In this document: positions 173 to 42,063 of the stretch, piece after piece
Position numbering within the stretch: the first letter of the stretch is position 1
Layout: the number at the start of each line of letters is the position of its first letter
NCBI RefSeq assembly: GCF_040183065.1
Contig: NC_091129.1
Coordinates: 192,501 to 256,500 of the forward strand
DNA length: 64,000 nucleotides
Direction of reading: 5' to 3'
DNA from: Periplaneta americana
Taxonomy: Eukaryota > Arthropoda > Insecta > Blattodea > Blattidae
Notes under the pieces: generated by a model
What the model was told of the DNA's origin: nothing
What the model saw: the letters and a program-made list of their open reading frames with translations, nothing else
Database searches by the model: none
Program-made: the position numbers and the translations under genes

Positions 173-285
173 TCCAAGGGGACATCTAATATACGTAATG
201 TATTTTTTGTATATGAAATAATTGTCAGAATATTAGGCTTAGTTGGTTTCCTTTTAAATAATGGCTGTTATCTTTTGTATTGCAA

Positions 286-1013
286 ATCCCGAAAAGACAA
301 AGTATATGATTATGTCTCGTGACGAGAATATTGTACGAAATGGAAATATAAAAATTAGAAATTTATCTTTTGAAGAGATGGAGAAGTTCAAATATCTGGG
401 AGCAACAGTAACAAATACAAATGATACTCGGGAGGAAATTAAACAGAGAATAAATATGGGAAATGCCTGTTATTATTCGGTTAAGAAGCTTTTATCATCC
501 AGTCTGCTGTCAAAAAATCTGAAAGTTAGAATTTATAAAACAGTTATATTACCGGATGTTCTTTATGGTTCTGAAACTTGGACTCTCACTTTGAGAGAGG
601 AACATAGGTTAAGGGTGTGTTTGAGAATAAGGTGCTTAGAAAAATATTTGGGGCTAAGAGAGATGAAGTTACAGGAGAATGGAGAAAGTTACACAACACA
701 GAACTGCACGCATTGTATTCACCTGACATAATTAGGAACATTAAATCCAGACATCTGAGATGGGCATGGCATGTAGCACGTATGGGTGAATCCAGAAATG
801 CATATAGAGTGTTAGTTGGGAGGCCGGAGGGAAAAAGACCTTTAGGGAGGCCGAGAAGTAGGTGGGAGGAGAATATTAAAATAGATTTGAGGGAGGAGGG
901 ATATGATGATAGAGAATGTATTAATCTTGCTCAGGGTACGGACCAAAGGCGGGCTTATGTGAGGGCGGTAATGAACCTCCAGGTTCCTTAAAAGCCAGTA
1001 AGTAAGTATGTAA
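286..1013 (+). pseudogene. 5'-truncated non-LTR retrotransposon (RTE-like), RT C-terminal part
   Basis: The translation carries the end of a LINE reverse transcriptase: NPEKTKYMIMSRD, KYLGATVTN, LLSKNLKVRIYKT, a 'VLYG.ETWTL' block, 'HVARMGES' and 'GRPEGKRPLGRPRSRW'. It ends at MNLQVP before a TAAG-rich tail. The frame shifts near 615, so it is dead. It is flanked by gtattgcaa (277-285) and gtactgcaa (1014-1022), a target-site duplication. The related unit at about 38843 has the empty site. The family assignment (RTE/BovB type) is from memory of similar proteins. The start of the duplication unit at 298 lies inside this element. Confidence 0.85.
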
Positions 1014-1022
1014 GTACTGCAA

Positions 1023-1598
1023 ATGTTCCATTTGCTCTGTCTAATAACAACTGATTAATTTACAGACTGTTTGAATGTCACCTAGTAGAGTAAACATAAA
1101 CAATGTCTGACGCAACCTCATCATGTTGACTTAATTGAAGACCGAACACACTATAATACTGTAGGCTACACTACTCAGTACAACCCTTATTTCTTCAGTT
1201 CTGTACTGGACAAGTGAAAGATTAGCCATCGGCGAGAAATGTCATTGCACACCGGAGATTTTGTTTTGTTTTTTGAGAATAATTGTTTATTTTTTAGTCT
1301 ACACTACTTTTATGTCTCACTTCAACATGTGCAACACATACGTAGTATTAAAATGTACCTACAAATTGCGATATAATTGACGCACAAATGTAACCAGATT
1401 TGTCCTCCTCTTATTCGAATCTTGGTCAGACATTGTTAATGTTTACTCTTACCGGTGACATTCAAACAGCCAATAAAGCAGCCATATCTTATTACACAGA
1501 GCTAACGTATCATTTGCAACCCAAAACATAGTTGGTTCCCATTTAAAAAAAGAAAGATGACTCTAATATCTTGAAAATTATATCAGGTACAAAAATTA
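1023..1598. other. Intron-like sequence, no gene seen
   Basis: Shared with unit B (about 6084-6660) and more distantly with 38845-39430. No coding pattern, structured RNA or transposon end was recognised. Confidence 0.6.
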
Positions 1599-1606
1599 CT
1601 TTACAT

Positions 1607-2574
1607 CACAGTGCTGCATTGGAGTTAAATCGCTCACTTGAACTCGGTCGAATGTCGCACCCTCGAGTGAGATAAGATCGGTCGTGATACGCTCGTAATG
1701 AATAGAAGCACAGTACAAGGTCATCTCACCGACATGTGTTATCTTGTATGGAAGGCGACAGATAAGATGCACATATGTTTTGCTCACACGGTAAAAATAA
1801 GGCTTTATTTTCTGCGTTTATGACAAACGTTTAATGGAACGTACCAAAACAGTAACATGAAGTTGTAAATAAAATAGTACGAAAAACTCCGATATATAGT
1901 TATTATTGCCAATTAATAATTATTCAATATTTGATGTACCACATATTATATAATATGATAGGTGCATATAGGCCTATAGTGTTCCGCCTATATACTGCGA
2001 CAATGTAGAAACGTTTTACAAAATATTATTGATATAGTAGTACATTAATAATAATATTAGTACAGAGATAACGTCACAGAAAATATAATAAAACGAATAA
2101 TCATGCGGGACAAATGTACAGACGCAACGATTGATACCTTATTATTAGAGATTATTGTTGTTGCTAGAAAACTTGATACGGTTCTTGCATTATCGTGATT
2201 GTCTTCTTCGTTTATAATAATTACATTTACATACAATAACATCTATCAGAAGAGGCAAAAACAAAATCACTCCCGTGTGGGAGAAAAGAAAAAAAAAACG
2301 TTTACCTACAATATTTATATTACATTTTAAAGCAAGTTCTGTAGTTGTGCTATGGAGAGGTTAGTTAAACACTGCAAAGTTTCGAAATGATAAACATCTA
2401 TGATGTTACTACACAGTTCATCACTGTAACAAGCACGGATGTCTAACGCTCGGCTTATATCGTTCGAGGATTTATCGCTCGCGACAATTTTACCCATCAT
2501 GCATGTGCGCTACCAATCGGATTATGCTATGAACTACTTGGCGCTCGAGCGAAAACGTACGATGCAGACCTCTG
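1607..2574. mobile_element. Non-autonomous hAT-like insertion (968 bp)
   Basis: Flanked by the 8-bp direct repeat ctttacat (1599-1606 and 2575-2582). The related locus near 39430-39445 has a single cttttcat, so it looks like the empty site. The right end reads ...cctctg, whose complement cagagg resembles the hAT CAG-type terminus; the left end begins cacagtgctg. The interior is AT-rich with no transposase. The terminal repeats are weak, so the family call rests mainly on the duplication length and the empty site. Confidence 0.6.
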
Positions 2575-2589
2575 CTTTACATGTATCAG

Positions 2590-2700
2590 ATGTAAGTTAA
2601 TTTAACTTTTAATTGTCGGTTTGTGCATATTTGAAATATTTCAGACGCTATTGGAGGTAAAAAATTAAATGGGACACACTATGTATATACAGGCTGATTA
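2590..2700 (+). repeat. Interspersed repeat related to 77-172
   Basis: Homologous in inverted orientation to 77-172, and in direct orientation to about 7652-7760 and 39460-39570. It includes ttaattgtcggtttgtgcat and a tatatacaggctgatt end. No coding content. Confidence 0.5.
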
Positions 2701-2861
2701 CTAAACGTCGTCTTAGAAGACAGGAGTGTGTTAGAGGATATTGTGTTGCTGAAATTCGAGATAAGAACCGTCATTTTATGATGATTAGGTACGGACATAT
2801 TAGGGGCAATACTCAAAATCAAATGGAGTATTAGTTACTTTCGTCCCACAGCCTGTAGTAC

Positions 2862-3146
2862 TTGGAGTTAAATGTCAAAAACACAATAACTATGTGATGT
2901 GTGCGACGTGTACCTGTCTGTCCCTGATATGATCGGAATTCTTCGTTTAATGGCAAGAACTGCGAAGAAAATAACAGTAGTCTAGTTGGTTTGTTTTCAA
3001 GTACTGCACAGTGAGTTCTCTGTACAATAACACTGTTTAAGCTCGCATTACTTGTCTGTCTCTGAAATGATCGGAATTCTTCGTTTAATCGCAAGAACTG
3101 CGAAGAAAATAACAATAGGCTAGTTGGTTTGTTTTCAAGTACTGTA
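2862..3146. repeat. 138-bp tandem repeat, about two copies
   Basis: Repeat unit marked by ttttcaagtactg, atgatcggaattcttcgttt and gaagaaaataacagta. Successive tcaagta marks are 138 bp apart. The array is interrupted at its right edge by the mariner-like element at 3147. Confidence 0.85.
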
Positions 3147-3635
3147 CAGTAAGGTGCGTAAGTCTCGTCACCCCCACCAACTTATTTGTATGTTGCTGTG
3201 CATCCATTTTTATTATGTTGCAATGGTTGATACTTTACGTTCCAGCTTGTTTAGTGATCCAGAACATCACTATGGGCACCATCATTGTCGCTGCACAAAA
3301 TGATGAGGCGCCATGTCCTGTGCGAAATTTGAAAATTCGTTGTGATTTCCCTGAATGCCTCCCTCACAGCTTGCTTCAAATCTTGAATTGTCTGGTATCC
3401 ATGTTTCGAGACATGCTGCTTAATTATTCCCCAAAGGGAAATCACACGCCTTTGCTGCGGAAAATTTCACACAGGACTTGGCGCCGCATCACATGCTCCG
3501 TAATAATGAAGGTCCACATATTATGCTCTGCATCACCCAACAAGCTGAAATGTCACACATCTGCTATGATATGTTCAAAATGGATGCAAATCAACATACA
3601 AACAAAGGGGTTGACAATACTTTCGGACCTATCTG
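3147..3635 (-). mobile_element. Tc1/mariner-type element remnant with transposase C-terminus
   Basis: Flanked by TA dinucleotides inside a split tctgtacagtg target. The ends are imperfect inverted repeats of about 50 bp (cagtaaggtgcg against cagataggtccg, both running into tttgtatgttg). On the minus strand 3445-3251 reads LWGIIKQHVSKHG, then DLKQAVREAFREIT, and ends GAHSDVLDH. This is the usual tail of IS630/Tc1/mariner transposases. The catalytic part is missing, so it is non-functional. The related 41130 locus lacks it. Confidence 0.75.
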
Positions 3636-3639
3636 TACA

Positions 3640-4242
3640 GTGAGTTCTCTGTCCACTGTGACAGTTTAAACTGGCATTACAATACGTATGTGTTTGTCAT
3701 TCTGAAGTAAGGTAAGCACGTGATGTTTACATTGCCTACGTCAAACTGGCGCCGGTTTTCAATGTGTGGTGCGCGAGTCGCCCGTTGTACGGCCTAGCAA
3801 ACCTGTGTGCGTCATGCTTGGAGTAAGGAAGTGTAATTTGGAAGTGCGGGATGTTTGATATGGACAAGTCGGAGTCACAGTCTGAACTGAAATCTTGCAT
3901 ACAAAAGTGTTTAACACGGAAATAATATTTGGCCCGAAAGACAATCGGGAAACATTGCAAGATAGGTATTGGTTCCTATCTTATTTATGCATGTTTTGAT
4001 GTGGTCTATTACGCCCTGGTCTTCGAAGACGGCATTTAGTATTCATCCTGTATGTATATGTTATATGTGTAGATCTAAGATTTCGTGGCAGTTATTCTGA
4101 CGAACATGTCAGCAGCCTACATTGTTTCCTTGGTTTGCTGTCATTGGCATTAGTAATAAATCAGAAGGTACTGCTGACAATTACCGACGCAGTGCTATGT
4201 TTTTAACATGATTTTTTAATAGTTTCTTTTTACCTTTTCCAG
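3640..4242 (+). other. Conserved leader of 'a' cassette (intron)
   Basis: A block including gtcggagtcacagtctgaact, then ...cattgtttccttgg, then aattaccgacgcagt, precedes every 45-nt exon except a3. It is nearly identical to 15640-16249 and recurs before a4-a7. It ends in the polypyrimidine tract and AG at 4241-4242. No coding content is recognised. Confidence 0.7.
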
Positions 4243-4290
4243 CGCAAGTTGCACCGTGTGTGGGCTCAGACAAACGTCTTCACCCCTGAG
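4243..4290 (+). CDS. Candidate micro-exon a1 (48 nt), unknown gene
   Basis: It lies between ccttttccag and gtaactatat, is 48 nt long and is open in phase 0, reading RKLHRVWAQTNVFTPE. It belongs to a class of seven short exons. Six of these share the pattern x-x-[LI]-H-R-x(4)-[TI]-N-[LVI]-[LF]; the rest of the sequence varies freely. The donor is shifted three bases relative to the other members, adding one codon. Compared with a2 in the duplicated unit, 14 of 45 aligned exon bases differ, while about 185 bases of upstream intron differ at roughly 3 sites. Function is not recognised. Exon status is inferred from splice signals, symmetry and the shared pattern; no transcript evidence is available. 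Confidence 0.6.
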
Positions 4291-5040
4291 GTAACTATAT
4301 GTGTATAATATATTATATTACTCAGATGATCTTCCTTAATATTAGTACCACTGGATCCCATATCTAATGTGTTTATTGAACAAAATTCGAGAATTGATTT
4401 CATTTTAGAACACAAGTGTTGATACCGGTTTCGGACTATATGCCTTACTTTAAAAATATTAATTTTGTTCAATCTGCACAATGGATACGAGTAATTGTCT
4501 CTTTATGCTCGACCATGCCGAAATGTACTAATTATACACCTGGTAGCGGTCCTTTAATGCATGTCATTAAAGTACACTACTCAGCCAATGACAAGTCAGC
4601 TTACAGGTGTTCAGCCAATGAATAGTCAGCTTTGTACCGTTATAAAACCGCAAGTATCGATTATTCTCGGATATGCAGTCGAAAGAGAATTAGCGAAAAG
4701 TCACGGAGGCTGGAAATGCAATACTGTCGCAGAAGGTTATGTTCTGTTACTATAATAATTAGCGTAAATTGTAAATAATATTCAAGTAAATTCAATTTGT
4801 CATCTCGTTTTTCAATGTCGAATTCAATAATCAAGGTTATATCAAGTTTAACGGAATTACATCAAGGTCAGTGACATTATTGTTCTTCGGAAAAAAATCA
4901 ATAATTTCGCGTTTGCGCACATCTCACAATTCACGACCTAGAACAAGGTCACTTCCGATCCTGTCAGATACAAATAAAATGTATACATCTGAATAATTTC
5001 AAGTTAGAAATATGGTCGAGCATGAAAAGTCGTATGAAAC
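4291..5040 (+). other. Downstream part of 'a' cassette (intron) with conserved block
   Basis: The intron continues with cttccttaatattagtacc. About 115-130 nt after the exon comes tttcattttag followed by a conserved block (gttgataccgg, ttcggactatatgcctta). That block recurs after a2 and a4-a7, and in diverged form at 29181. It could be a second acceptor or terminal exon, but the frame closes quickly. Otherwise no gene is seen. Confidence 0.55.
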
Positions 5041-5043
5041 TTG

Positions 5044-5142
5044 CCTATAATGGTAATTAAGACGCTCGTATGAATATTACGAAACGAGCTTGCGCTCGTT
5101 TCATAAACATCCATGCTTGCGTCTTAATTACTATTATTATAG
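5044..5142. repeat. Foldback palindrome (about 100 bp)
   Basis: Outer arms (cctataatggtaattaagac and gtcttaattactatta) are complementary, and an inner hairpin reads gaaacgagc/gctcgtttc. The same structure is at 17036-17134 in unit B. It is a foldback MITE or hairpin-forming repeat. Confidence 0.6.
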
Positions 5143-5358
5143 GCTCGTTGCATAATGTACTATTTTTATCCACCTCTCTTAATTCATAATCATTCATAGG
5201 CACATGTCATATTTCCGTCAGATGGACTTTGTTATTCGCGTCCATTTTCGATAATTGAATTATGTTTTGTGAAAAGGTATGTGACAGCAGTTTTCATAGA
5301 AATCCTCTAGGGCAAGGATAAGACGATGTTAGCTCCCAATCATTGTAGAAAACATCGA

Positions 5359-6074
5359 CAAAGTATATGATTATGTCCCGTGACGAGAATATTGTACGAA
5401 ATGGAAATTAAAAAATTAGAAATTTATCTTTTGAAAAGGTAGAGAAGTTCAAATATCTGGGAGCAACAGTAACAAATACAAATGATACTCGGGAGGAAAT
5501 TAAACACAGAATAAATATGGGAAATGCCTGTTATTATTCGGTTGAGAAGCTTTTATCATCCAGTCTGCTGTCAAAAAATCTGAAAGTTAGAATTTATAAA
5601 ACAGTTATATTACCGGTTGTTCTTTATGGTTGTGAAACTTGGACTCTCACTCTGAGAGAGGAACATAGGTTAAGGGTGTTTGAAATTAAGGTGCTTAGAA
5701 AAATATTTGGGACTAAGAGAGATGAAGTGACAGGAGAATGGAGAAAGTTACACAACACAGAACTGCACACATTGTATTCTTCATCTGACATAATTAGGAA
5801 CATTAAATCCAGACATCTGAGATGGGCATGGCATGTAGCACGTATGGGTGAATCCAGAAATGCATATAGAGTGTTAGTTGGGAGGCCGGAGGGGAAAAGA
5901 CCTTTAGGGAGGCCGAGAAGTAGATGGGAGGAGAATATTAAAATAGATTTGAGGGAGGTGGGATATGATGATAGAGAATATATTAATCTTGCTCAGGGTA
6001 CGGACCAAAGGCGGGCTTATGTGAGGGCGGTAATGAACCTCCAGGTTCCTTAAAAGCCAGTAAGTAAGTATGTA
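5359..6074 (+). pseudogene. LINE RT C-terminal fragment, copy in unit B
   Basis: Duplicate of the LINE at 286-1013, but beginning 12 bases inside it because the duplication breakpoint cut it. From 5517 one frame runs without interruption through MGNACYYSVEKLL, VVLYGCETWTL, RKIFGTKRDEVTGEW and GRPEGKRPLGRPRSRW to MNLQVP. The frameshift seen in copy A is therefore younger than the duplication. It has no endonuclease or catalytic RT core, so it is not functional. Confidence 0.85.
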
Positions 6075-6668
6075 AGTATTGCAAATGTTCCATTAACTCT
6101 GTCTAATAACAACTGATTAATTTACAGACTGTTTGAATGTCACCTAGTAGAGTAAACATAAACAATGTCTGACGCAACCTCATCATGTTGACTTAATTGA
6201 AGACCGAACACACTATAATACTGTAGGCTACACTACTCAGTACAACCCTTATTTCTTCAGTTCTGTACTGGACAAGTGAAAGATTAGCCATCGGCGAGAA
6301 ATGTCATTGCACACCGGAGATTTTGTTTTGTTTTTTGAGAATAATTGTTTATTTTTTAGTCTACACTACTTTTATGTCTCACTTCAACATGTGCAACACA
6401 TACGTAGTATTAAAATGTACCTACAAATTGCGATATAATTGACGCACAAATGTAACCAGATTTGTCCTCCTCTTATTCGAATCTTGGTCAGACATTGTTA
6501 ATGTTTACTCTTACCGGTGACATTCAAACAGCCAATAAAGCAGCCATATCTTATTACACAGAGCTAACGTATCATTTGCAACCCAAAACATAGTTGGTTC
6601 CCATTTAAAAAAAGAAAGATGACTCTAATATCTTGAAAATTATATCAGGTACAAAAATTACTTTACAT

Positions 6669-7636
6669 CACAGTGCTGCATTGGAGTTAAATCGCTCACT
6701 TGAACTCGGTCGAATGTCGCACCCTCGAGTGAGATAAGATCGGTCGTGATACGCTCGTAATGAATAGAAGCACAGTACAAGGTCATCTCACCGACATGTG
6801 TTATCTTGTATGGAAGGCGACAGATAAGATGCACATATGTTTTGCTCACACGGTAAAAATAAGGCTTTATTTTCTGCGTTTATGACAAACGTTTAATGGA
6901 ACGTACCAAAACAGTAACATGAAGTTGTAAATAAAATAGTACGAAAAACTCCGATATATAGTTATTATTGCCAATTAATAATTATTCAATATTTGATGTA
7001 CCACATATTATATAATATGATAGGTGCATATAGGCCTATAGTGTTCCGCCTATATACTGCGACAATGTAGAAACGTTTTACAAAATATTATTGATATAGT
7101 AGTACATTAATAATAATATTAGTACAGAGATAACGTCACAGAAAATATAATAAAACGAATAATCATGCGGGACAAATGTACAGACGCAACGATTGATACC
7201 TTATTATTAGAGATTATTGTTGTTGCTAGAAAACTTGATACGGTTCTTGCATTATCGTGATTGTCTTCTTCGTTTATAATAATTACATTTACATACAATA
7301 ACATCTATCAGAAGAGGCAAAAACAAAATCACTCCCGTGTGGGAGAAAAGAAAAAAAAAACGTTTACCTACAATATTTATATTACATTTTAAAGCAAGTT
7401 CTGTAGTTGTGCTATGGAGAGGTTAGTTAAACACTGCAAAGTTTCGAAATGATAAACATCTATGATGTTACTACACAGTTCATCACTGTAACAAGCACGG
7501 ATGTCTAACGCTCGGCTTATGTCGTTCGAGGATTTATCGCTCGCGACAATTTTACCCATCATGCATGTGCGCTACCTATCGGATTATGCTATGAACTACT
7601 TGGCGCTCGAGCGAAAACCTACGATGCAGACCTCTG
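6669..7636. mobile_element. Non-autonomous hAT-like insertion, copy in unit B
   Basis: Duplicate of 1607-2574 with the same ctttacat flanks (6661-6668 and 7637-7644). It was present before the A/B duplication. No coding content. Confidence 0.6.
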
Positions 7637-7924
7637 CTTTACATGTATCAGATGTAAGTTAATTTAACTTTTAATTGTCGGTTTGTGCATATTTGAAATA
7701 TTTCAGACGCTATTGGAGGTAAAAAATTAAATGGGACACACTATGTATATACAGGCTGATTACTAAACGTCGTCTTGGAAGACAGGAGTGTGTTAGAGGA
7801 TATTGTGTTGCTGAAATTCGAGATAAGAACCGTCATTTTATGATGATTAGTTACGGACATATTAGGGGCAATACTCAAAATCAAATGGAGTATTAGTTAC
7901 TTTCGTCCCACAGCCTGTAGTATT

Positions 7925-8735
7925 TGGAGTTAAATGTCAAAAACACAATAACTATGTGATGTGTGCGACGTGTACCTGTCTGTCCCTGATATGATCGGAA
8001 TTCTTCGTTTAGGCGTAAGAACTGCGAAGAAAATAACTGTAGTTGGTTTGTTTTCAAGTACTGTACAGTGCGTTCTCTGTGCAATATCACTGTTTAAACT
8101 CGCATTACCTGTCTGTCTCTGAAATGATCGGAATTCTTCGTTTAATGGCAAGAACTGCGAAGAAAATAACAGTATGCTGGTTGGTTTGTTTTCAAGTACT
8201 GTACAGTGAGTTCTCTGTGCAATATCACTGTTTAAACTCGCATTACATATCTGTCTCTGAAATGATCGGAATTCTTCGTTTAAGCGCAAGAACTGCTAAG
8301 AAAATAACAGTAGGCTAGTTGGTTTGTTTTCAAGTAATGTACAGTGAGTTCTCTGTGCAATATCACTGTTTAAACTCGCATTACATATCTGTCTCTGAAA
8401 TGATCGGAATTCTTCGTTTAAGCGCAAGAACTGCTAAGAAAATAACAGTAGGCTAGTTGGTTTGTTTTCAAGTACTGTACAGTGAGTTCTCTGTGCAATA
8501 TCACTGTTTAAACTCGCATTACATATCTGTCTCTGAAATGATCGGAATTCTTCGTTTAAGCGCAAGAACTGCTAAGAAAATAACAGTAGGCTAGTTGGTT
8601 TGTTTTCAAGTACTGTACAGTGGGTTCTCTGTGCAATATCACTTTTTAAGCTCGCATTACTTGTCTGTGTCTGAAATGATCGGAATTCTTCGTTTAATCG
8701 CAAGAACTGCGAAGAAAATAACAGTAGTTTAGTTG
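7925..8735. repeat. 138-bp tandem repeat, about six copies
   Basis: tcaagta marks fall at 8054, 8192, 8330, 8468 and 8606, exactly 138 apart. Neighbouring units are almost identical. The array continues on the other side of the composite insertion, so unit B holds about eight copies against two in A and one in the third unit. Confidence 0.9.
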
Positions 8736-9085
8736 TAGAAAAGTTTTCCGGGCTATGAGGCCGTGGTCTGTTGGTTGTGAGACCAAAAGTTTCGTTCACT
8801 GCTGCGGTGAACATCTTCAGTGGTGTCTATTGCTGGTGCGGCTGGTTCTACTGCGTGTGCCGATTACAGTCCGCGCTGAGTGAATGAGTGGGGGGAAGTG
8901 GGAGGATAAACTTTAAAGATACGTGAAAACACGTCCTTGCAAGGGGGGAGTTGGGGCTGTGAAAAACTGAATATGTGAGCTCCAAGGCTCTTGGCCACTT
9001 GTCTCACTTCGGGTTTCGCCGCCCCAGTGAAGGAGCGCTAGAAATTTCCAGTGGGTAAGCCGAAAATGGACGTAACTGATTAGCT
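8736..9085 (+). repeat. Left long inverted arm of composite insertion
   Basis: Runs tagaaaagttttccgggc, ...ccgtggtctgttggttgtga, ...gttcactgctgcggtgaaca and on to tggacgtaac. It matches the complement of 14440-14786. The outermost 42 bases of the right arm are absent here. Confidence 0.8.
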
Positions 9086-9229
9086 ACAACATACGGGGGG
9101 GGAGGAGCGGCAGAAGTACAGCGACCTGATCCGGAGGAGAGACGCGATGGAGGAGAAGTCTAGGCACGAAACGGTGATAGCCAGTTTGGCTGTTTGAAGA
9201 TTCGAACGCGTAGGTATTAATCTTACAAT

Positions 9230-9283
9230 AGCCAATTGGCTCTTTGATGATTTTTCTCAGATCAGGAGACCAGCCAATTGGCT
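9230..9283. repeat. Pair of 12-bp palindromes AGCCAATTGGCT (left)
   Basis: Perfect palindromes at 9230-9241 and 9272-9283, both followed by ctttg. Related copies are at 13976-13987 (identical) and 14027-14038 (one base different), downstream of the jockey ORF. Role unknown. Confidence 0.7.
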
Positions 9284-9397
9284 CTTTGGTGACTCCAGTG
9301 ATCTGTACAAGGGGACGATTGAATTCTGTTAGGGCCCGAGTTCGATGTGAATAATCATTAATTTTGAGCCGTCACCAATGTCTGGGGAAGTGAATGC

Positions 9398-9484
9398 AGG
9401 TCCGTGGCCCATTTCTTTTAGGGCTCATCCCGACATTTGTCTTAACGCCTTAGGAAAACCACGGAAAAACCTTAGGCAGGATGA
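9398..9484 (+). repeat. Inner inverted repeat, left copy
   Basis: Reads aggtccgtggcccatttctt through cttaggcaggatga and is complementary to 14060-14144 with few differences. It contains an accacgg/ccgtgg core. It may be the 3' end of a LINE family present in opposite orientation. The 9485-9853 stretch beside it shows nothing recognisable. Confidence 0.75.
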
Positions 9485-9853
9485 TACAGTCTGCGCTGGC
9501 TGCATCGTTGTATATATACTGTTGTCACGCCAGGAGAAGGCGGCTGAAGTACTTAGACGGGGCGGAGGGGAAACAGTCGCGCATGCGCAGCGCGCTGTTC
9601 ACTGCAATATTCCTGTTTCACAAACATCTACTACATGTGTCTGTGAGTCTTTGCGACTTTGTGAAAATAATAGTGCGGTTTTTATTGTAGTGTTTTATTA
9701 GTTTCAACAAGACAATTGTTTTCAGTATACCGCAAATCTTTGTATTGCTTTAGTTATCCTTTGCTTTTCGTGTTAATAATAATATAGTTAATAGAATTTA
9801 TGTTATTGTATACTGTTATTTAGGTTTATAGCAGTTTTTTGTTTATTGTAAAT

Positions 9854-10940
9854 ATGTCGACAAAGAGGAAACAAGGATTGGCAATCTATAGCGAAGAAAG
9901 AAATATTATTAGAAGTACAAAATAATTCTGCGATGAAGAAAAAGAACAACAGTGCCTTTGCATTCCTCTTACGAAACCTACGGCAAAGGTAGAAAAGTAC
10001 TCTAATGTATCCACAAGAACAATACAGCGTATAAGGAATGAAATGAAAGACTGCACAGAAGAAAGTGCGTTGTCGACACCTGAGGGAGAAAAAAAAAACG
10101 GAAACTTCCAGACTAGCGAAACGCAAATGTAGATGACTTCGACGGGAGATTGACAAAAAGATATAATTGAGAATTTTTATTTGAAAAAGAAAGAGGGCCA
10201 CCGGCGTAGCTCAGGAGGTAGCGCGTATGCCTGCTGATCTGCAGTTGCGCTCGGGAGTGAGTGCGATTCCCGCTTGCGCTGACTACCTGGTTGGGTTTTT
10301 TCCGAGGTTTTCCCAAGAGAATGTCAGATAATCTATGGCGAATCCTTGGTTTCATTTCGCCAAATACCATCTCGCCATCATCAATTCAATCGACACTGAA
10401 GAAGCTAGTATCTATTACAGTGTCGTTAAATAACAAGTAAAAAAAATAGTACCAAGCTGCAACAAACTTCTACCCTTTTACAAGAGAAAATTGATTTGAA
10501 ATGAAAGACAACATTAAGACGAATATTGAAGAAGAAGGATTTGTGGTGGAAGAAGTGTGCAGGAAAAAAATATAGGAAAACACTGTAAATTACAATACGT
10601 TAAGATATCTACAGCAAATAAGAAAGCTTAGGAAAGTGGAAAAACCGATTTTGTATCTGGACGAAATGCGGATAGATAGGTCTACCAATTTAGCGTTTCC
10701 CAAGTGCTGGCACGATAAAAATGTTACGGGAGTTTTGACTACCATAAATGTGTCCAGAACACTCATTGTTGTCCATCAGGATGGGGGCGGTGGGGCTAAT
10801 GGCTTTGTTGAGAGATTCGAATTAATATACACGGCTGGAACATAAACAGACGATTGTCATGGACAGATCATACTCCAGCAATTTTGAAAAATGTGATGAT
10901 AGTCATAGCAACAATATTTCATGTCTGACTCCGTTCCCTT
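9854..10940 (+). pseudogene. IS630/Tc1-like transposase relic, interrupted by a SINE
   Basis: Starts MSTKRKQGLAIYSEERNI at 9854. It continues with a helix-turn-helix-like piece (NVSTRTIQRIRNEMK) and, after the SINE at 10198-10442, PSCNKLLPLLQEKIDLK. The DDE part follows: KPILYLDEMRID (10636 onward), KCWHDKNVTGVLTT, TLIVVHQDGG and ANGFVERFELIYTAGT. This order matches a common arthropod IS630-type transposase with the first Asp in YLDE. Several stops and frameshifts are present and the C-terminal Asp/Glu region is not recognisable, so it is inactive. Confidence 0.75.
10198..10442 (+). repeat. tRNA-derived SINE, family 1
   Basis: The head ccggcgtagctcaggaggta resembles an A box and the gagtgcgattcccgc region a degenerate B box. 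The body contains ctacctggttgggtttt and atggcgaatccttgg, and the 3' end is gtcgttaaataa followed by an A-rich tail. Minus-strand relatives are at 25822, 49408 and 62498. It interrupts the transposase relic. Confidence 0.85.
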
Positions 10941-11042
10941 GTAGCCAAGTAAGCGGACCGAAGTTTTCAGGTCAGAGTGTAGCGTAAAATTCCCCCGTCC
11001 CGCCTATCTACTCTCCGCGCCAACTCGTAGCGCGAAGACAGT

Positions 11043-11161
11043 AGTGCGGGAAGGGGGGGGGCTTGCTGTTGTCGCCTCGGTCCACGCTCGAGTGTGCTTC
11101 GCGGGCGGGTTTGCTGTTTTCCACGCGCTCCGCGTCCGCTAGCCCCCCCCCTTCCCGCACT
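11043..11161. repeat. GC-rich perfect inverted repeat before the jockey ORF
   Basis: 21-nt arms, agtgcgggaa then nine G then ct (11043-11063), and the exact complement at 11141-11161, enclose 77 GC-rich bases. This is very unlike the AT-rich surroundings. It ends 9 bases before the first jockey-like ATG, so it may be a foreign 5' addition or a foldback insertion at the truncation point. Confidence 0.75.
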
Positions 11162-11170
11162 ATATATACA

Positions 11171-13849
11171 ATGATGCAGCCAGCGCAGACTGGACATGAG
11201 TTCAGGGCTTTCCTAGACGCTAATAATATAGACGTAGCATTTATAACAGAAACGTTCCTGACACCCCAAGTAAATTTAAGATGCGCGGGGTTTAAAGTCT
11301 ATAGACAAGATAGAGCGGGTAGAAGAGGCGGAGGTGTAGCGGTGTTCGTTCGTTCTTCGATCGCGCACTGTGAGTATCTCCTTCCCCAGCTAGCGGCATT
11401 AGAGGCAGTGGCTATTAGAGCCTACATAGGCAGACTCCCCTTTCTGCTTATGGCTGCCTACAGTCCTCCGGGCACACTAAATGAACGCGATTTAGATATA
11501 GTGACAAGTCTATCCGATAGATTCGTAATCGCCGGCGACCTCAATGCGAAGCACGCTAGCTGGAACTGTCAACGCCCCAATCGGCAGGGCGATAGGCTTT
11601 TTCTAAATTCTACAGGAAACGGATACGTCGTGATGGCCCCTAGGGAACCCACACACGTACCGGCTGCTGCAAATCAACTGCCTGACATATTAGACATCGC
11701 TCTGGTGAAAGGTCTCACAACTAGAGCGAGACTAACAACCCTGGATGATCTTCCGTCCGACCACCTACCGGTGATAATGGAGATCATGCACCCAGTTGAA
11801 CTCTCCCCAACCGCTGAGAAATTCAACTACAAGGCGGCAGACTGGGTGTTCTTCCAAGACCAGGTAGCCGCTACGCTTCCACCACTCCCCCCTGAAGTCA
11901 CTCCGGCAGGGATAGATAGGTCAGTTAACGACCTGACGGAGTGCATAAAGAAGGCAATGGTTGCTGCAATACCGAGACGGATGCAGCTTCCAGCCTATAT
12001 TAGAGACCTAAAGATCGCCCGCAATAGAGCAAGAACATTGTGGAAGCGTACTAGGTTAGATGAACATAGAATAGAAATGAACCGCTTGCGCAGGCGGATC
12101 AGTGAGGCGGTCCACGAAACGGTCGTGGATGCTTGGAAATCCAAGGTTGAAACTATGGACAGCAGAAACATGTCAGATGTCTGGCGTGTATCTCGAGCTC
12201 TGTCCAATCCGTCTCAATATATTCACCCATTAGTAGTCGGTCCAGATGTCACGGCCTTTACTCCTGAGGAGAAGGATACCGCACTGGCAGACGTTCTAGA
12301 GACCACTTTTCAACCCGTGGAACAAAATTTACACTTTCCCCATATCAGAGCTGTTGAGGAATCGGTTCGAGACCTCCTTAGCAGGGAGCCGGAAAATGGG
12401 ATACGACCTACGAACACCCACGAGGTCGCCCATTTCATTCGTCGCCTCGGCCCTCATAAGGCCGCAGGAGCCGACGGTATCCAAGGAATTATATTGCAGC
12501 ATCTCCCAAGGTCAGCTATGAAGCGCATAGCAGAGATAGTTAATAACATCTTGGCTTCCGGTCACTATCCCATTCCCTGGAAAGAGGCTCACGTAGTTCT
12601 CTTTCCAAAGCCCGGAAAGGATAAGACGAATCCAAGCAACTATAGGCCTATTAGTCTCCTCAGTTGTCTCAGCAAACTGGCGGAGCGGGTCATACATAGA
12701 CGCCTCACTGAAGTAGTGTTGCCCCAAATCAGGAACGAGCAGTTCGGTTTTCACCCTGGTCGTTCCACTACACTCCAGGCACTCCGCATGACGGAGGACA
12801 TTACCTGGGCTATGAGCACGAAGCGTGTAGTAGCTGCAGCTTACCTGGACATCGAGCGAGCATTCGACAAGGTTTGGCATGAGGGACTCCTCGTTAAGTT
12901 ACTGGGCATGGGAGTCCCAGATGGAATGATACGCCTCATTTCTAACTACCTCCGAGGCCGTACATTCAAAACCCGTTTAGGCACTAGTTTCTCCACCCCC
13001 CGTGAAATTCACGCAGGAGTCCCACAGGGTTCCATTATCGGGCCCATACTTTTCAATATATTCATTAATGACCTCCCGTTCCGCTATACCCACGGCAGAA
13101 GTAGTCATCTGTATATCTATGCAGACGACACTGCCCTCTTGGCGATGGGCAAAACCTATAGATTAGCGTCCCGTAGATTGCAGTCGATCTTAGATCACCT
13201 GCAGCCGTGGTTCCACGACTGGACAATCAAGGTCAATGTAGAGAAATGTCAGGCCATACTCTTTTCACTAAGAGCGAGGCTCGAAGACATACCACCACCA
13301 CCCACACTTTTCGGACGAGAAATGCCGTGGATGAACCAAATTAAATATTTAGGGATCATTATGGACTCTCATCTCAACTTCCGAGATCACATCCAATCCC
13401 TTCTTCGTAAGGACAACGGGCTGATAGTTAGACACTATCCCATTCTGGCGGCCTTAACTCCTGACAACCTGAGGGTAGGACTTACCACGTATAAGGCCCT
13501 CATTCGCTCTGTCATTACCTATGCCGCACCCGCATGGGGGTTTGCGGCAGTGTCCCATCTCCGTAAACTCCAAGTTGTCCAAAACCAGGTGATTCGACTT
13601 ATTACCCATCTCACCCGAGTCGCCTCGAGAAGAAAGTTCCATGATGAACTAGAGTTGCCAACCATAGACGAGTTCATTGCTCGACTGGCTAGGAACCTGT
13701 ATGCGGAAGCTCGTGCTAACCCCAACCCGCTCATATCTGGCCTCGGCCAGTATGATCCTAGGTTACGGCGTAGACACCAGACAGGTCCATTAGCTATACT
13801 ATTGAGACAGGAGGACAGGGAGGCTGGCGTTACTCCCAGGTTTTGGTAG
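11171..13849 (+). CDS. Jockey-type LINE ORF2 (endonuclease-reverse transcriptase), 5'-truncated
   Basis: Uninterrupted frame of 892 residues from ATG 11171; the same frame stays open back to 11063 but without similarity. The AP-endonuclease domain has ITETF (Glu27), GDLNAKHASWN (near 120) and SDHLPV. The reverse transcriptase follows: KAAGADGI, FPKPGKDKTNPSNYRPISLL, NEQFGFHPGRSTT, YLDIERAFDKVWHEGLL, GVPQGSIIGPILFNIFINDL and the catalytic IYADDTALLA (Y650). A VNVEKCQAI thumb and YLGIIMDSHLNF come next. Jockey ORF2 proteins normally start with a W-N-x-N-G stretch about 20 residues before this point; it is missing, replaced by the GC-rich hairpin. No gag-like ORF1 precedes it. The intact frame suggests a young insertion, but without the first endonuclease Asn it is probably not autonomous. 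Clade assignment (jockey against other I-group LINEs) is by motif recall. Confidence 0.9.
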   Translation: MMQPAQTGHEFRAFLDANNIDVAFITETFLTPQVNLRCAGFKVYRQDRAGRRGGGVAVFVRSSIAHCEYLLPQLAALEAVAIRAYIGRLPFLLMAAYSPPGTLNERDLDIVTSLSDRFVIAGDLNAKHASWNCQRPNRQGDRLFLNSTGNGYVVMAPREPTHVPAAANQLPDILDIALVKGLTTRARLTTLDDLPSDHLPVIMEIMHPVELSPTAEKFNYKAADWVFFQDQVAATLPPLPPEVTPAGIDRSVNDLTECIKKAMVAAIPRRMQLPAYIRDLKIARNRARTLWKRTRLDEHRIEMNRLRRRISEAVHETVVDAWKSKVETMDSRNMSDVWRVSRALSNPSQYIHPLVVGPDVTAFTPEEKDTALADVLETTFQPVEQNLHFPHIRAVEESVRDLLSREPENGIRPTNTHEVAHFIRRLGPHKAAGADGIQGIILQHLPRSAMKRIAEIVNNILASGHYPIPWKEAHVVLFPKPGKDKTNPSNYRPISLLSCLSKLAERVIHRRLTEVVLPQIRNEQFGFHPGRSTTLQALRMTEDITWAMSTKRVVAAAYLDIERAFDKVWHEGLLVKLLGMGVPDGMIRLISNYLRGRTFKTRLGTSFSTPREIHAGVPQGSIIGPILFNIFINDLPFRYTHGRSSHLYIYADDTALLAMGKTYRLASRRLQSILDHLQPWFHDWTIKVNVEKCQAILFSLRARLEDIPPPPTLFGREMPWMNQIKYLGIIMDSHLNFRDHIQSLLRKDNGLIVRHYPILAALTPDNLRVGLTTYKALIRSVITYAAPAWGFAAVSHLRKLQVVQNQVIRLITHLTRVASRRKFHDELELPTIDEFIARLARNLYAEARANPNPLISGLGQYDPRLRRRHQTGPLAILLRQEDREAGVTPRFW

Positions 13850-13975
13850 CCACGACTCAACTCCATGAGACTCCTTGGATAGTGCAACCGCTTTAAAATG
13901 ACCTTGTCTTAACTGGGCTAAACAAAATCCCTCCCTAACAATATCTACTTTTGTTGATCGATGGAAGTATCATAG

Positions 13976-14038
13976 AGCCAATTGGCTAGTATATATCCAT
14001 CGATTCATAGAGTCATTCAACCTAAGAGCCAACTGGCT
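13976..14038. repeat. Pair of 12-bp palindromes (right)
   Basis: AGCCAATTGGCT at 13976-13987 and AGCCAACTGGCT at 14027-14038, both followed by agt, in the jockey 3' untranslated region. Same motif as 9230-9283. Confidence 0.65.
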
Positions 14039-14059
14039 AGTCTCTGATATTGAGACAAC

Positions 14060-14144
14060 TCATCCTGCCTAAGGTATTCCGTGGTTTGCCTCAGGCGTAA
14101 GACAAATGTCGGGATGAGCCCTATAAGAAATGGGCCACGGACCT
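14060..14144 (-). repeat. Inner inverted repeat, right copy
   Basis: Complement of 9398-9484 (tcatcctgcctaaggt ... gggccacggacct). It lies outside the palindromes here but inside them on the left, so the composite is not a simple mirror. 14145-14439 shows no recognisable feature. Confidence 0.75.
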
Positions 14145-14439
14145 ATATGCCCTTCCCCATATATATTCCACCCTTATTATAAACGATGTATGCCCTAGTT
14201 CAGATAATATAAGTAGTCTATTAAATATACGAGGTCACTCAATAAGTCGCAAATTGAAAGGACAGGGACCTCTCAAATTGCAGATTAGATTTCACGGCGC
14301 TTCTTCCGACGGCCTTCACATGCTTTGTCATCGAACAACAGATGACGGCGTCTTGCCATCCTAACGGCAAACACCAGCCAACTCCTCCTCGCCCCGTTCC
14401 GTGATCACTTGATCAATCTCAGCCCCCCTCGCGTATGTG

Positions 14440-14828
14440 GTACCTAAGAGGTTACGTCCAAATTCGGCTTCCCCTTCAAAATTCTCTAAAGCTCCTTCAG
14501 AGGAGCAGCGTAACCCGGAGTGAGACTAGTGGCCAACAGGCTTGGAGCTCACATAGTTAGTTTTGTACAGCCCCCAACCCCTTACAAGGACGCGTTTTGC
14601 GTACCTTTTAAAATTTTCCTCCCAATTCTCCTTCGATTTTTCGATTTTTCGAGCGCAGACTGTAATCGGCACACGCAGTAGAACCAGCCGCACCAGCAAT
14701 AGACACCACTGAATATGTTCACCGCAGCAGTGAACGAAACGTTTGGTCTCACAACCAACAGACCACGGCCTCATAGCCCGGAAAACTTTTCTACTATTGA
14801 CGCCGGCCGTGAAAGTCTACACTCCAAT
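14440..14828 (-). repeat. Right long inverted arm of composite insertion
   Basis: Its complement starts tggagtgtagactttcacgg and continues into ttttccgggctatgaggccg, matching 8736-9085. It holds 42 extra bases at its outer end, including gacgccggccgtgaaag. I recall similar ends from arthropod Penelope-like elements, but this is not verified. Confidence 0.8.
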
Positions 14829-15135
14829 AGTAGTCTAGTTGGTTTGTTTTCAAGTACTGTACAGTGAGTTCTCTATACAATAACACTGTTTAAGCTCGCA
14901 TTACTTGTCTGTCTCTGAAATGATCGGAATTCTTCGTTTAAGAGCAAGAACTGCGAAGAAAATAACAGTAGGCTAGTTGGATTGTTTTCAAGTACTGCAC
15001 AGTGAGTACTCTGTGCAATATCACTGTTTAAACTCGCATTACATATCTGTCTCTGAAATGATCGGAATTCTTCTTTTAAGCGTAAGAACTGCGAGAAAAT
15101 AACAGTAGGCTAGTTGGTTTGTTTGAAGTACTGTA
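14829..15135. repeat. 138-bp tandem repeat, remaining two copies
   Basis: Continuation of the 7925-8735 array after the insertion, with the same tcaagta and atgatcggaattctt marks. Bounded on the right by the mariner-like element. Confidence 0.85.
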
Positions 15136-15631
15136 CAGTAAGGTGCGTAAGTCTCGTCACCCCCACCAACTTATTTGTATGTTGCTGTGCATACATTTTT
15201 ATTATGTTGCAATTGATGTATGGCAATGGTTGATGCTTTACGTTCCAGCTTGTTTAGTGATCCAGAACATCAGTATGGGCACCATCATTGTCGCTGCACA
15301 AAATGATGAGGCGCCATGTCCTGTGCGAAATTTTCCGAAGGAAAATTCGTTGTGATTTCCCTGAATGCCTCCCTAACAGCTTGCTTCAAATCTTGAATTG
15401 TCTGGTATCCATGTTTCGAGACATGCTGCTTAATTATTCCCCAAAGGGAAATCACACGCCTTTGCTGCGGAAAATTTCACACAGGACTTGGCGCCGCATC
15501 ACATGTTCCGTAATAATGAAGGTCTGGATCACCTAACAAGCTGAAACGTCACACATCTGCTATGATATGTTCAAAATGGATGCAAATCAACATACAAACA
15601 AAGGGGTTGACAATACTTTCGGACCTAACTG
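15136..15631 (-). mobile_element. Tc1/mariner-type remnant, copy in unit B
   Basis: Duplicate of 3147-3635 with TA flanks and the same inverted ends. It keeps a short ttttccgaagg segment missing from copy A and lacks about 20 bases near 15530. Transposase C-terminal fragment on the minus strand; inactive. Confidence 0.75.
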
Positions 15632-16249
15632 TACAGTGAGTTCTCTGTCCACTGTGACAGTTTAAACTGGCATTACAATACGTATGTGTTTGTCATTTTG
15701 AAGTAAGGTAAGCACGTGATGTTTATATTGCCTACGTCAAACTGGCGCCGGTTTTCAAAGTGTGGTGCGCGAGTCGCCCGTTGTACGGCCTTGGACTAAA
15801 TCCTAGCAAACCTGTGTGCGTCATGCTTGGAGTAAGGAAGTGTAATTTGGAAGTGCGGGATGTTCGATATGGGCAAGTCGGAGTCACAGTCTGAACTGAA
15901 ATCTTGCATACAAAAGCGTTTAACACGGAAATAATATTTGGCCCAAAAGACAATCGGGAAACATTGCAAGATAGAGTATTGGTTCCTACCTTATTTATGC
16001 ATGTTTTGATGTGGTCTATTACGCCCTGGTCTTCGAAGACGGCATTTAGTATTCATCCTGTATGTATATGTTATATGTGTACATCTAAGATTTCGTGGCA
16101 GTTATTCTGACGAACATGTCAGCAGCCTACATTGTTTCCTTGGTTTGCTGTCATTGGCATTAGTAATAAATCAGAAGGTACTGCTGACAATTACCGACGC
16201 AGTACTATGTTTTTAACATGATTTTTAATAGTTTCTTTTCCTTTTCTAG

Positions 16250-16294
16250 CACATGTTGCATCGTGTGGAAGCGCACACCAACATCTTCAAACTA
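16250..16294 (+). CDS. Candidate micro-exon a2 (45 nt)
   Basis: Sits between ccttttctag and gtaagtagct, is 45 nt and open in phase 0: HMLHRVEAHTNIFKL. This is the position-matched partner of a1 after the A/B duplication. Leu-His-Arg, Thr-Asn and Phe are kept; codons 1, 2, 7 and the last two changed completely. 14 of 45 aligned bases differ in an otherwise almost identical neighbourhood. Its donor is the consensus gtaagt, so the exon is one codon shorter than a1. Confidence 0.62.
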
Positions 16295-17035
16295 GTAAGT
16301 AGCTATATGTGTATAATATATTATATTACTCAGATGCTCTTCCTTAATATTAGTACCACTGGATCCCATATCTAATGTGTTTATTGAACAAAATTCGAGA
16401 ATTGATTTCATTTTAGAACACAAGTGTTGATACCGGTTTCGGACTATATGCCTTACTTTAAAAATATTAATTTTGTTCAATCTGCACAATGGATACGAGT
16501 AATTGTCTCTTTATGCTCGACCATGCCGAAATGTACTAATTATACACCTGGTAGCGGTCCTTTAATGCATGTCATTAAAGTACACTACTCATTAAAGTAC
16601 AGGTGTTCAGCCAATGACAAGTCAGCTTTGTACCGTTATAAAACCGCAAGTATCGATTATTCTCGGATATGCAGTCGAAAGAGAATTAGCTAAAAGTCAC
16701 GGAGGCTGGAAATGCAATACTGTCGCAGAAGGTTATGTTCTGTTACTATAATAATTAGCGTTAATTCTAAATAATTTTCAAATAAATTAAATTTGTCATC
16801 TCGTTTTTCAATGTCGAATTCAATAATCAAGGTTATATCAAGTTTAACGGGATTACATCAAGGTCAGTGATATTGTTCCTCGGAAAAAATCAATAATTTC
16901 GCGTCTGCGCACATCTCACTATTCACGACCTAGAACAAGGTCACTTCCGATCTTGTCAGATACAAATAAAATGTATACATCTGAATAATTTCAAGTTAGA
17001 AATATGGTCGAGCATAAAAAGTCGTATGAAACTTG

Positions 17036-17134
17036 CCTATAATGGTAATTAAGACGTTCGTATGAATATTATGAAACGAGCTTGCGCTCGTTTCATAAAC
17101 ATCCATACTTGCGTCTTAATTACTATCGTTATAG
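17036..17134. repeat. Foldback palindrome, copy in unit B
   Basis: Same arms and inner gaaacgagc hairpin as 5044-5142, with a few substitutions. Confidence 0.6.
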
Positions 17135-17435
17135 GCTCGTTGCATAATGTACTATTTTTATCCACCTCTCTTAATTCATAATCATTCATAGGCACATGTC
17201 ATATTTCCGTCAGATGGACTTTGTTATTCGCGTCCATTTTCGATAATTGAATTATGTTTTGTGAAAAGGTATGTGACAGCAGTTTTCATAGAAATCCTCT
17301 AGGGCAAGGATAAGACGATGTTAGCTCCCAATAATTGTAGAAAACATCGACCTTGATCACGAGTGCATAGCGCATCCAGTACATAGCGTCGTAAAGTAGA
17401 CATCAGGGAAGTACATGCACATGTAGCGAATAAAG

Positions 17436-28568: not shown

Positions 28569-28613
28569 GAAGCCAATCCAGACGGTAGAATCTACTTCAG
28601 GAAAGAACCAAAT
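28569..28613 (+). CDS. Candidate micro-exon a3 (45 nt)
   Basis: Preceded by ttattttcttgttacag and followed by gtaagtaact, exactly 45 nt, open in phase 0: EANPDGRIYFRKEPN. The downstream intron keeps diverged copies of the a-cassette landmarks: gtaagtaact, and at 29181 a block resembling ttgataccggtttcggac. It is therefore an older member of the class. The peptide does not keep the Leu-His-Arg...Thr-Asn pattern. Function unknown. Confidence 0.55.
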
Positions 28614-42018: not shown

Positions 42019-42063
42019 AGTCGCATCCATCGTGAATTCGGTGACATTAATCTTTTGGAAAAT
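42019..42063 (+). CDS. Candidate micro-exon a4 (45 nt)
   Basis: Between ccttttctag and gtaaataact, 45 nt, open in phase 0: SRIHREFGDINLLEN. The last 90 or so bases of the upstream intron are essentially identical to those before a2, yet 26 of 45 exon bases differ from a2. His-Arg and Asn-Leu-Leu are retained. Function unknown. Confidence 0.6.

Follow-up and report, generated by a model that had tools for sequence, protein, structure and literature searches.

Putative cassette exons and duplicated units in the window

The window, a 64-kb stretch of Periplaneta americana DNA, contains ten putative cassette exons of three kinds (a, b and c), which are 45 to 81 nt long and all in phase 0 (Table 1). 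Judged from the sequence, they probably form an array of short exons, all in frame, within a predicted gene or gene cluster of very large size, which appears to have been multiplied recently to at least 14 places in the genome. The cassette neighbourhood was found to be repeated at a minimum of 12 close loci and at 2 older ones; these locus counts are lower bounds, with about the best 40 matches scored among 94, 72, 128 and 33 first-look matches in the genome searches. The exons a1 and a2 each lie in one copy of a duplicated unit of approximately 5.07 kb, and the copy that contains a2 is longer by a further 6 kb insertion. No a, b or c cassette was detected in about 95 kb of readable DNA upstream of the window in a flank search of C13 at E up to 1e-6, and the last 5 kb before the window consist of N. 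One copy of each distinct C13 cassette was combined into a 248-residue probe, which gave no Pfam match at E up to 1, and cysteine was absent from the cassette peptides examined.

Table 1. Duplicated units and putative cassette exons in the window.
Feature	Position	Strand	Phase	Edges	Sequence	Remarks
Duplicated unit A	284..5356	+				contains a1; self-comparison: 296-3150 versus 5357-8207 at 98.1%, 2911-5359 versus 14902-17351 at 94.2%
Duplicated unit B	5357..17351	+				contains a2 and the 6 kb insertion (~8735-14825); from self-comparison
Putative cassette exon a1	4243..4290	+	0	CAG|...|GTAACT	RKLHRVWAQTNVFTPE	48 nt, open frame; 13 exact genome copies
Putative cassette exon a2	16250..16294	+	0	TAG|...|GTAAGT	HMLHRVEAHTNIFKL	45 nt; same peptide in 7/8 examined copies
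Putative cassette exon c1	28569..28613	+	0	CAG|...|GTAAGT	EANPDGRIYFRKEPN	8 distinct exons among 12 copies examined
Putative cassette exon b1	33460..33540	+	0	CAG|...|GTGAGT	GSSYSENGATREQISSYETLKSRDSHW	
Putative cassette exon a3	42019..42063	+	0	TAG|...|GTAAAT	SRIHREFGDINLLEN	
Putative cassette exon b2	46230..46304	+	0	CAG|...|GTAAGT	GSPNLRHQKATEYADQRASTSSDQG	
Putative cassette exon a4	48219..48263	+	0		IHLHRTKAETNLLEE	a4-type exon and core within a6-type unit (conversion tract)
Putative cassette exon a5	54593..54637	+	0			exon identical to a4
Putative cassette exon b3	58778..58852	+	0			exon identical to b2
Putative cassette exon a6	61311..61355	+	0		VKLHRSKGETNLLED	

For the comparison across loci, places were taken from the listed matches, 20 of the 33 for c and 20 of 40 each for a1/a2, a4/a6 and b. 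Edges were called close to the flank match, to within a few bases, by a rule that preferred AG and GT, lengths divisible by three and open frames; 94 of the 96 cassettes received edges, and the other two (L084 and L085) had no upstream match. None of the 52 distinct exons has a stop in phase 0, against 17 and 41 with stops in the other two phases, a count that is partly favoured by the preference of the edge rule for open frames. L053 (44 nt, broken frame) was excluded from all groups and L001-L008 from the counts; the rate groups also exclude L083 (78 nt), L064 (odd upstream flank), the remote L088, L107 and L108, and the cassettes a3, a8, a9, b4 and b5.

The divergence step at the putative splice edges

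The first-pass annotation had reported, from counts by eye, that a1 and a2 differ far more than the introns duplicated with them, and the alignment bears this out. The coordinates that it gave were right (Table 1), 14 of the 45 paired bases differ (31%), the donor of a1 is displaced by one codon against that of a2, and the step in divergence is located at AG and GT. The 185 bases upstream carry three substitutions, as had been counted, plus two small indels, and outside the exon 68 of 2366 positions differ (2.9%, for a claimed value of about 2%) over the 2.4 kb alignment. In the 230 bases on each side of the exon, the figure is 5 of 453 (1.1%). The difference between the exon and the rest is highly significant (Fisher p = 4.7e-12, with the 15 mismatches placed in 4243-4290 by the long alignment included). 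Outside the exon, no 45-column window holds more than 6 differences, compared with 14 at the exon, and a flank as diverged as the exon, which the annotation had named as evidence against its own claim, was not found in the a1/a2 alignment. Divergence within the duplicated unit is minimal near the exon, is 1.6% in the left half and, in places farther from the exon, rises to about 5-8%.

The excess of exon over flank divergence was also observed in the a4/a6, a7, c1 and c2 pairs. In b1 and b2, the exons are unalike, and the flanks differ at 14 of 226 positions upstream and 43 of 184 downstream. The exon was the single divergence peak only in the a1-a2 and b1-b2 scans; other stretches exceeded it in the a4-a6 and c1-c2 scans and were taken as badly aligned unit ends. 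Counterexamples are present in the window, as the a4/a5 and b2/b3 exons are identical with surroundings 3.6% and 2.7% apart. Among 19 related pairs, no rise of divergence was seen on approach to the exon edge (flank bins 1.1-4.0%, exon 23%).

Conversion was shown once. At 48219, a short tract replaced the whole cassette and entered the introns, leaving an a4 core of 0.28-0.37 kb in an a6-type unit, with a4-type states from -205 to +33 and a6-type states at -214, at -226 and from +113 onward. The flanks of this a4-type exon (C13_a4) show 10-14 differences from nine of ten a6 copies, 50 from the remaining one and 15-17 from the rest of the a4-type copies. Mosaic flanks were likewise found in four of nine a1-type copies, where the sequence is a2-like from about +294 onward. 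The a1/a2 flank sites near the exon agree with the exon grouping without a clash. A conflict between exon and intron genealogies in a1/a2 was considered and rejected, as the site table is consistent with an early branch within a2 that holds the copies of C13, C12:6.9M and C15:140.6M.

Silent, replacement and intron changes across loci

We compared nine cassette positions over 64 haplotype steps, with the adjoining introns as the rate baseline; a candidate baseline stretch upstream is a dispersed repeat. Introns had changed at 448 of 37472 site-steps (1.2%). Exon silent sites had changed at 55 of 718 (7.7%, p 4e-25), which is 6.4 times the intron rate, a ratio that may be too high because each small exon offers only about ten silent sites and the simple count may undercount them. 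Exon replacement sites had changed at 77 of 2588 (3.0%, 2.5 times the intron rate, p 2e-11). The haplotype steps underlying these values are no true phylogeny, and conversion between loci breaks their independence. An alternative count on an intron-only haplotype tree, which gave 17-fold at recent steps, was discarded as biased towards few intron changes and as counting shared exon changes repeatedly.

The exon-like stretches, and not the adjoining introns, carry an excess of ordinary point substitutions, both silent and replacement, which is bounded by the predicted splice sites and present at recent and old depths. The silent/intron ratio was 9.6 at recent steps, 5.6 at middle ones and 6.3 at deep ones, and it ranged from 3.2 to 16 across all nine groups, with a6 and b1 not significant alone. 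The excess is uneven: a1 is identical in 13 copies, and a6 showed one silent and one replacement change only. The recent class comprises five silent and six replacement changes; of the nine recent steps at which an exon changed, seven have one change each and two have two, and steps with at most one intron difference already show one or two new exon changes. The surroundings are likewise young, since 4.4 kb aligned beyond the cassette between the C16 locus and C13 differ by only 2.7% (120 of 4444). This pattern is the reverse of the usual one, in that coding-like stretches change several times faster than adjoining non-coding DNA, even at silent positions.

Neither of two mutational candidates accounted for the excess. 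A changed mutation spectrum was rejected, as the transition:transversion mix is alike in exons (57:60) and introns (179:169), and so was CpG decay, as a CpG is involved in just 28 of 117 exon changes, 14 of them transitions.

Assembly errors arise readily in multi-copy regions on small scaffolds, and the first-pass annotation had itself pointed to assembly or haplotype error as a possible source of the exon differences. An assembly, haplotype or annotation artefact is nevertheless very unlikely. Thirteen exact copies of a1 occur at 11 loci, with none at one to three mismatches, and the exon changes are distributed over third, first and second codon positions as 57, 41 and 19. The published P. 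americana assembly is described as made from HiFi and Hi-C reads, and RNA polishing does not figure in its methods as described there, which leaves RNA-polishing error without support.

Purifying selection filters the changes at most cassette positions, since the frame is kept and silent sites change faster than amino acids; the exception is b2, with N/S of about 1. Diversifying selection on the peptide, the usual proposal for venom exons and one of the three causes suggested by the first-pass annotation, would fit the raised replacement rate (2.5 times intron overall and 3.2-7.7 times in b2, c1, a7 and c2), the N/S of 1.0 in b2, and the comparison of C16_b2 with C15old_b2, which revealed nine replacement and no silent changes. 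However, the silent rate exceeds the replacement rate in eight of nine groups and is level with it in b2, and N/S is 0.39 overall by simple site count and 0.03 in a2. The silent-site excess, including the 12-fold value in a2 with its hardly changing peptide, led us to reject diversifying selection as the sole cause, and we regard this explanation as improbable.

Another proposed cause was that the introns have been homogenised around protected exons. Here, conversion or recombination among cassettes and loci would keep the introns alike, and the exons, each under selection for its own role, would retain old differences; the MHC exons are a similar case of protected exons beside homogenised introns. 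The tract at 48219, the a2-like stretches in a1-type copies and the flanks of C13_a4, which are closer to most a6 copies than to a4-type copies, are all consistent with this, and a precedent exists in primate L/M opsin genes, where exon divergence exceeds intron divergence and conversion lies mostly in introns (PMC3213168). On the other hand, a2 has nine silent changes and one replacement change among its copies, with a silent/intron ratio of 12.3; seven of eight copies encode one peptide, which leaves protein-level selection with next to nothing to protect. Exon changes at steps with 0 or 1 intron differences, the lack of any fading of divergence across the splice edges and the agreement of near-exon flank sites with the exon grouping also argue against it. 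Intron homogenisation may act in part, and it fails for a2; as the explanation of the whole pattern, it is a possible but doubtful one.

The remaining proposal, replacement of exons by conversion, is borne out to the extent that conversion does occur at 48219; that tract enters the introns, however, and the recent exon changes came singly or in twos. A piecemeal form, in which small pieces are copied from other cassettes, would change exons more than flanks with each tract, because the cassette exons differ much and the flanks little. In its favour, the first codon of b2 and b3 in C13 is GGA as in b1, whereas CAA, AAA or GAA stands there in the 15 remaining b2 copies that received edges, and 21 of 34 replacement changes in the a groups match other cassettes (16.1 expected, p 0.06). 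In contrast, silent changes in the a groups match other cassettes at chance level (28 of 34 against 29.3 expected, not significant), and several single changes private to individual c1 copies have no counterpart in any c cassette compared. We give such templated copying little credence, and conversion by itself does not explain the silent excess.

Preferred reading and related systems

The reading that we favour, at slightly below even chances, is that the putative exons alone accumulate excess substitutions, which purifying selection filters and which duplication and conversion spread. Whatever drives the excess would act on the exon itself or on the spliced message, and not on the protein alone; it might take the form of exon-confined mutation or of selection on the nucleotide sequence of the message, and segmental duplication and conversion would then move the exons among loci. 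We know of no exon-confined mutational mechanism in animals. A germline process with the spliced message as its intermediate could alter DNA only inside exon borders, as would happen if the transcript were reverse-transcribed with errors and the product then recombined into the gene; in the mirror image of this, excised intron RNA would homogenise the introns alone. Either would place the step precisely at AG and GT, with changes at both silent and replacement sites and an unaltered mutation spectrum, but we consider either a long shot.

The nearest precedents appear to be the exon acceleration of venom genes and the primate L/M opsins. In snake venom toxin genes (accelerated exon evolution, ASSET), introns are more than 85% alike with large differences restricted to exons, and the authors state that the mechanism is not understood (PMC2711939). 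Conserved introns and exon-restricted differences are found here as well. In contrast to the toxin exons, where replacement changes commonly exceed silent ones, N/S is 0.39 here and level only in b2; the toxins are secreted and have conserved cysteines, whereas the cassette peptides have no cysteine and no Pfam match; the cassettes stand singly within large introns; and the recent changes are point changes, not segment switches. Exons that outrun their own introns are thus known from venom genes, with the cause still open there, and the same shape occurs here in an insect genome as an array of short cassettes in many near-identical copies with the strongest signal at silent sites, so that protein-level selection is separable from other forces on the exons. 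As many copies are recent, the question can be tested directly with cockroach reads.

In gibbon L/M opsin genes, as here, exon divergence exceeds intron divergence between copies, and conversion between copies is documented (PMC3213168); among the cassettes, we found one clear tract. Unlike the opsins, which are two related genes in one array, the cassettes occupy at least 14 dispersed loci, the single resolved tract carries the exon along, and the silent excess persists with the peptide unchanged; the protein difference that selection could protect in opsins is present in a1 versus a2 and a4 versus a6 and not in a2. Conotoxin genes also combine introns conserved within a gene superfamily with very diverse coding exons (PMC3862624). 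They are toxin genes of two or three exons, whereas many putative phase-0 mini-exons are present here. Aphid bicycle genes have a layout of many microexons with a characteristic phase and a cysteine motif, and relative to these features the cassettes differ in their phase 0 and in peptides without cysteine. The likeness is that of an insect family whose coding sequence evolves faster than its gene structure (PMC9168663). A cockroach or insect precedent for the pattern was not evident in the literature searched. In mutually exclusive cassettes of the Dscam type, each transcript includes one member of a cluster; here, phase 0 would permit any combination of the cassettes.

Odorant-receptor genes of the same genome served as a control, in which the two informative pairs differed at 2 of 165 and 2 of 165 positions in the exon core and at 10 of 358 and 28 of 322 outside the open frame, a weak control in that the two pairs are from one family and were chosen for alike exon match scores, which favours similar exons. 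These pairs run in the usual direction, with the exon below the non-coding sequence.

Cassette inventory and coding signature

The window contained ten cassettes, in-frame exon-like stretches with AG/GT edges, of three kinds named after their flanks: a1-a6 (45-48 nt), b1-b3 (75-81 nt) and c1 (45 nt). Six further cassettes (b4, b5, a7, c2, a8 and a9) lie on the same contig, C13, no more than 80 kb beyond the downstream end of the window. Among 52 distinct cassette exons, the length was a multiple of three in 51 and no exon had a stop in phase 0, compared with 17 and 41 exons in the other two phases, an outcome that the edge-finding rule partly favours. Exon changes fell on third, first and second codon positions 57, 41 and 19 times, respectively. 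The sequences provide good evidence that the cassettes are translated; their membership in one transcript is putative. A probe assembled from the cassettes revealed no match in Pfam. Additionally, an a4-like copy on C16 (L053) had 44 nt and a broken frame, and it is possibly a decaying cassette.

Divergence of exons and flanks

The first-pass annotation had counted by eye 14 differences between the 45 aligned exon bases of a1 and a2, which lie in duplicated units A and B, and roughly three in the preceding 185 bases. The alignment bore this out: 14/45 exon bases were mismatched, and the 185 bases 5' of the exon contained 3 substitutions plus 2 indels. The flanks differed at 5/453 positions (230 bases per side), and the 2.4 kb alignment minus the exon at 68/2366; the exon was the sole divergence peak, with 14 mismatches per 45 columns versus at most 6 anywhere else. 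In 19 related pairs pooled, flank bins from 240 bases out up to the splice sites showed 1.1-4.0% divergence with no rise towards the exon, and exon divergence was 23%. C16 and C13 were 2.7% apart over approximately 4.4 kb beyond the cassette (119/4504 mismatches in a separate BLAST alignment), so the surroundings are young across kilobases and not only near the exon.

At nine cassette positions, distinct haplotypes, each consisting of the exon and as many as 610 bases of flank, were joined in a minimum spanning tree, and changes were counted along its 64 edges. The rates were 448/37472 (0.0120) in introns, 55/718 (0.0766) at silent and 77/2588 (0.0298) at replacement exon sites. Pooled, the silent/intron ratio was 6.4 (p = 4e-25), replacement/intron 2.5 (p = 2e-11) and replacement/silent (N/S) 0.39, the exact exon/intron ratio being uncertain owing to few silent sites, conversion between copies and simple counting. 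The silent/intron ratio was 9.6 on recent edges (from 5 changes), 5.6 on middle and 6.3 on deep ones. By group, it was 6.6 (a1), 12.3 (a2), 4.0 (a4), 4.2 (a6), 12.2 (a7), 5.1 (b1), 3.2 (b2), 16.0 (c1) and 10.2 (c2), the a6 and b1 excesses each being non-significant alone. N/S reached 1.0 in b2, and a2 had 9 silent changes and 1 replacement. In a simpler tally of variable sites, 7/9 groups had exon/intron ratios between 2.1 and 9.5; the exceptions, neither significant, were b1 (1.7) and a6 (0.4, a set that includes L064, a copy with an odd upstream flank).

Recently duplicated odorant-receptor genes from the same genome showed the usual direction, with exons below the sequence around them. Two informative pairs had 2/165 and 2/165 mismatches in the exon core, and beyond the open frame these pairs had 10/358 and 28/322, in a small control whose pairs were chosen for alike exon match scores, which favours similar exons; a third pair was identical over its whole length.

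Candidate causes

Protein-level diversification as sole cause cannot lift silent above replacement sites. CpG decay was likewise rejected: CpG was touched by 28/117 exon changes and was not depleted (0.048 per base in exons at 46.5% G+C, 0.025 in introns at 33.3%). The transition/transversion mix did not differ between exons and introns.

Conversion does occur among cassettes. The cassette at 48219 is a4-type from -205 to +33, and the unit around it has a6-type sequence at -214 and -226 and again from +113 on; the converted tract thus measures 283-372 bases, intron included. Templated copying was unsupported by silent changes in the a groups, which matched other cassettes in 28/34 cases versus 29.3 expected; replacement changes matched in 21/34 versus 16.1 (p = 0.06). 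We also observed that the first codon of b2 and b3 is GGA, as in b1, and that each of the 15 further b2 copies whose edges were assigned begins with CAA, AAA or GAA; a small conversion crossing the acceptor site is possible.

The strongest rival is that introns were homogenised around protected exons, in the manner of L/M opsins (PMC3213168). This explanation is weakest at a2, whose copies share their peptide and nonetheless differ at silent sites. Because diversification, CpG decay and templated copying fall short and a2 weakens the homogenised-intron explanation, we prefer a reading in which exons alone would gain excess substitutions, mostly filtered by purifying selection. Against such an exon-confined excess, a1 and a6 are almost invariant, the a4/a5 and b2/b3 exons are identical in diverged surroundings, and a4 on C13 and C3 differs at 1/45 exon bases with flanks 3.1% apart. 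The divergence step coincides with the putative splice sites, which may point to the spliced message as intermediate or target of selection.

Introns of venom phospholipase genes reportedly evolve more slowly than silent sites. Unlike venom-type genes, the cassettes are dispersed mini-exons without cysteines and with N/S well under one. They resemble snake toxin genes in having conserved introns beside altered exons, through a mechanism those authors call not understood (PMC2711939), and conotoxin genes in intron conservation, there inside a superfamily (PMC3862624).

Genomic copies and neighbouring elements

The window lies at C13:192501-256500 in an assembly of 3,231,669,367 bases and 91 contigs (published: 3.23 Gb, 91 scaffolds); the published assembly was built from HiFi and Hi-C reads, and RNA polishing is absent from the first part of its methods and from its assembly section. 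Flank searches with a1, b2, a4 and c1 converged on the same loci (Table), with remoter relatives at about 70-74% identity also among the matches listed. Genome-wide, the a1 exon had 13 exact copies spread over 11 loci, and no copy differed from it by 1-3 mismatches; c1 had 3 exact copies and 5 more with 1-2 mismatches. Eight of the close loci are on chromosome-size contigs, and for seven of these (on C9, C12, C13 and C15, but not the one on C3) a contig end is within 10 Mb; the remaining four close loci sit on contigs of 1.3-4.1 Mb. Four close loci have same-strand c-like cassettes (73-74% identity) at a distance of roughly 450-500 kb on their upstream side, and the duplicated block may therefore be larger than half a megabase.

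Table. Positions of cassettes, loci and other elements (window coordinates unless a contig is named)
Feature	Position	Remark
a1 exon	4243-4290	unit A
a2 exon	16250-16294	unit B
b2, b3 first codons	46230-46232, 58778-58780	
L053	C16:157.52M	
Close loci	C3, C9 (two), C12 (two), C13, C15 (two), C18, C21, C23, C26	at least 12 among matches listed
Older loci	C16:157.5M, C15:140.6M	at least 2 among matches listed
Distant c-like cassettes	C15:181.44M, C15:177.61M, C26:0.50M, C21:2.06M	
Insertion	8735-14825	6 kb, unit B
Inverted ends of insertion	8735-9102, 14423-14794	84% alike
138-base repeat	7973-8735	about five head-to-tail copies, duplicated-unit junction
Stray 138-base copies	2911-3150, 14826-15139	
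Related repeats	10194-10446, 25817-26078, 49411-49676, 62500-62765	about 260 bases
tRNA-like stretch	28694-29090	two inverted copies (by eye), just 3' of c1

The insertion presumably holds a reverse-transcriptase-like frame, with a YADD-type motif seen by eye near 13.1 kb. The a1-a2 spacing is about 12 kb at C12:6.9M as well and about 5.1 kb at most other loci, which suggests that C12:6.9M carries the same insertion. The four related repeats resemble a tRNA-derived short element, and the inverted tRNA-like pair seems to form a long hairpin.
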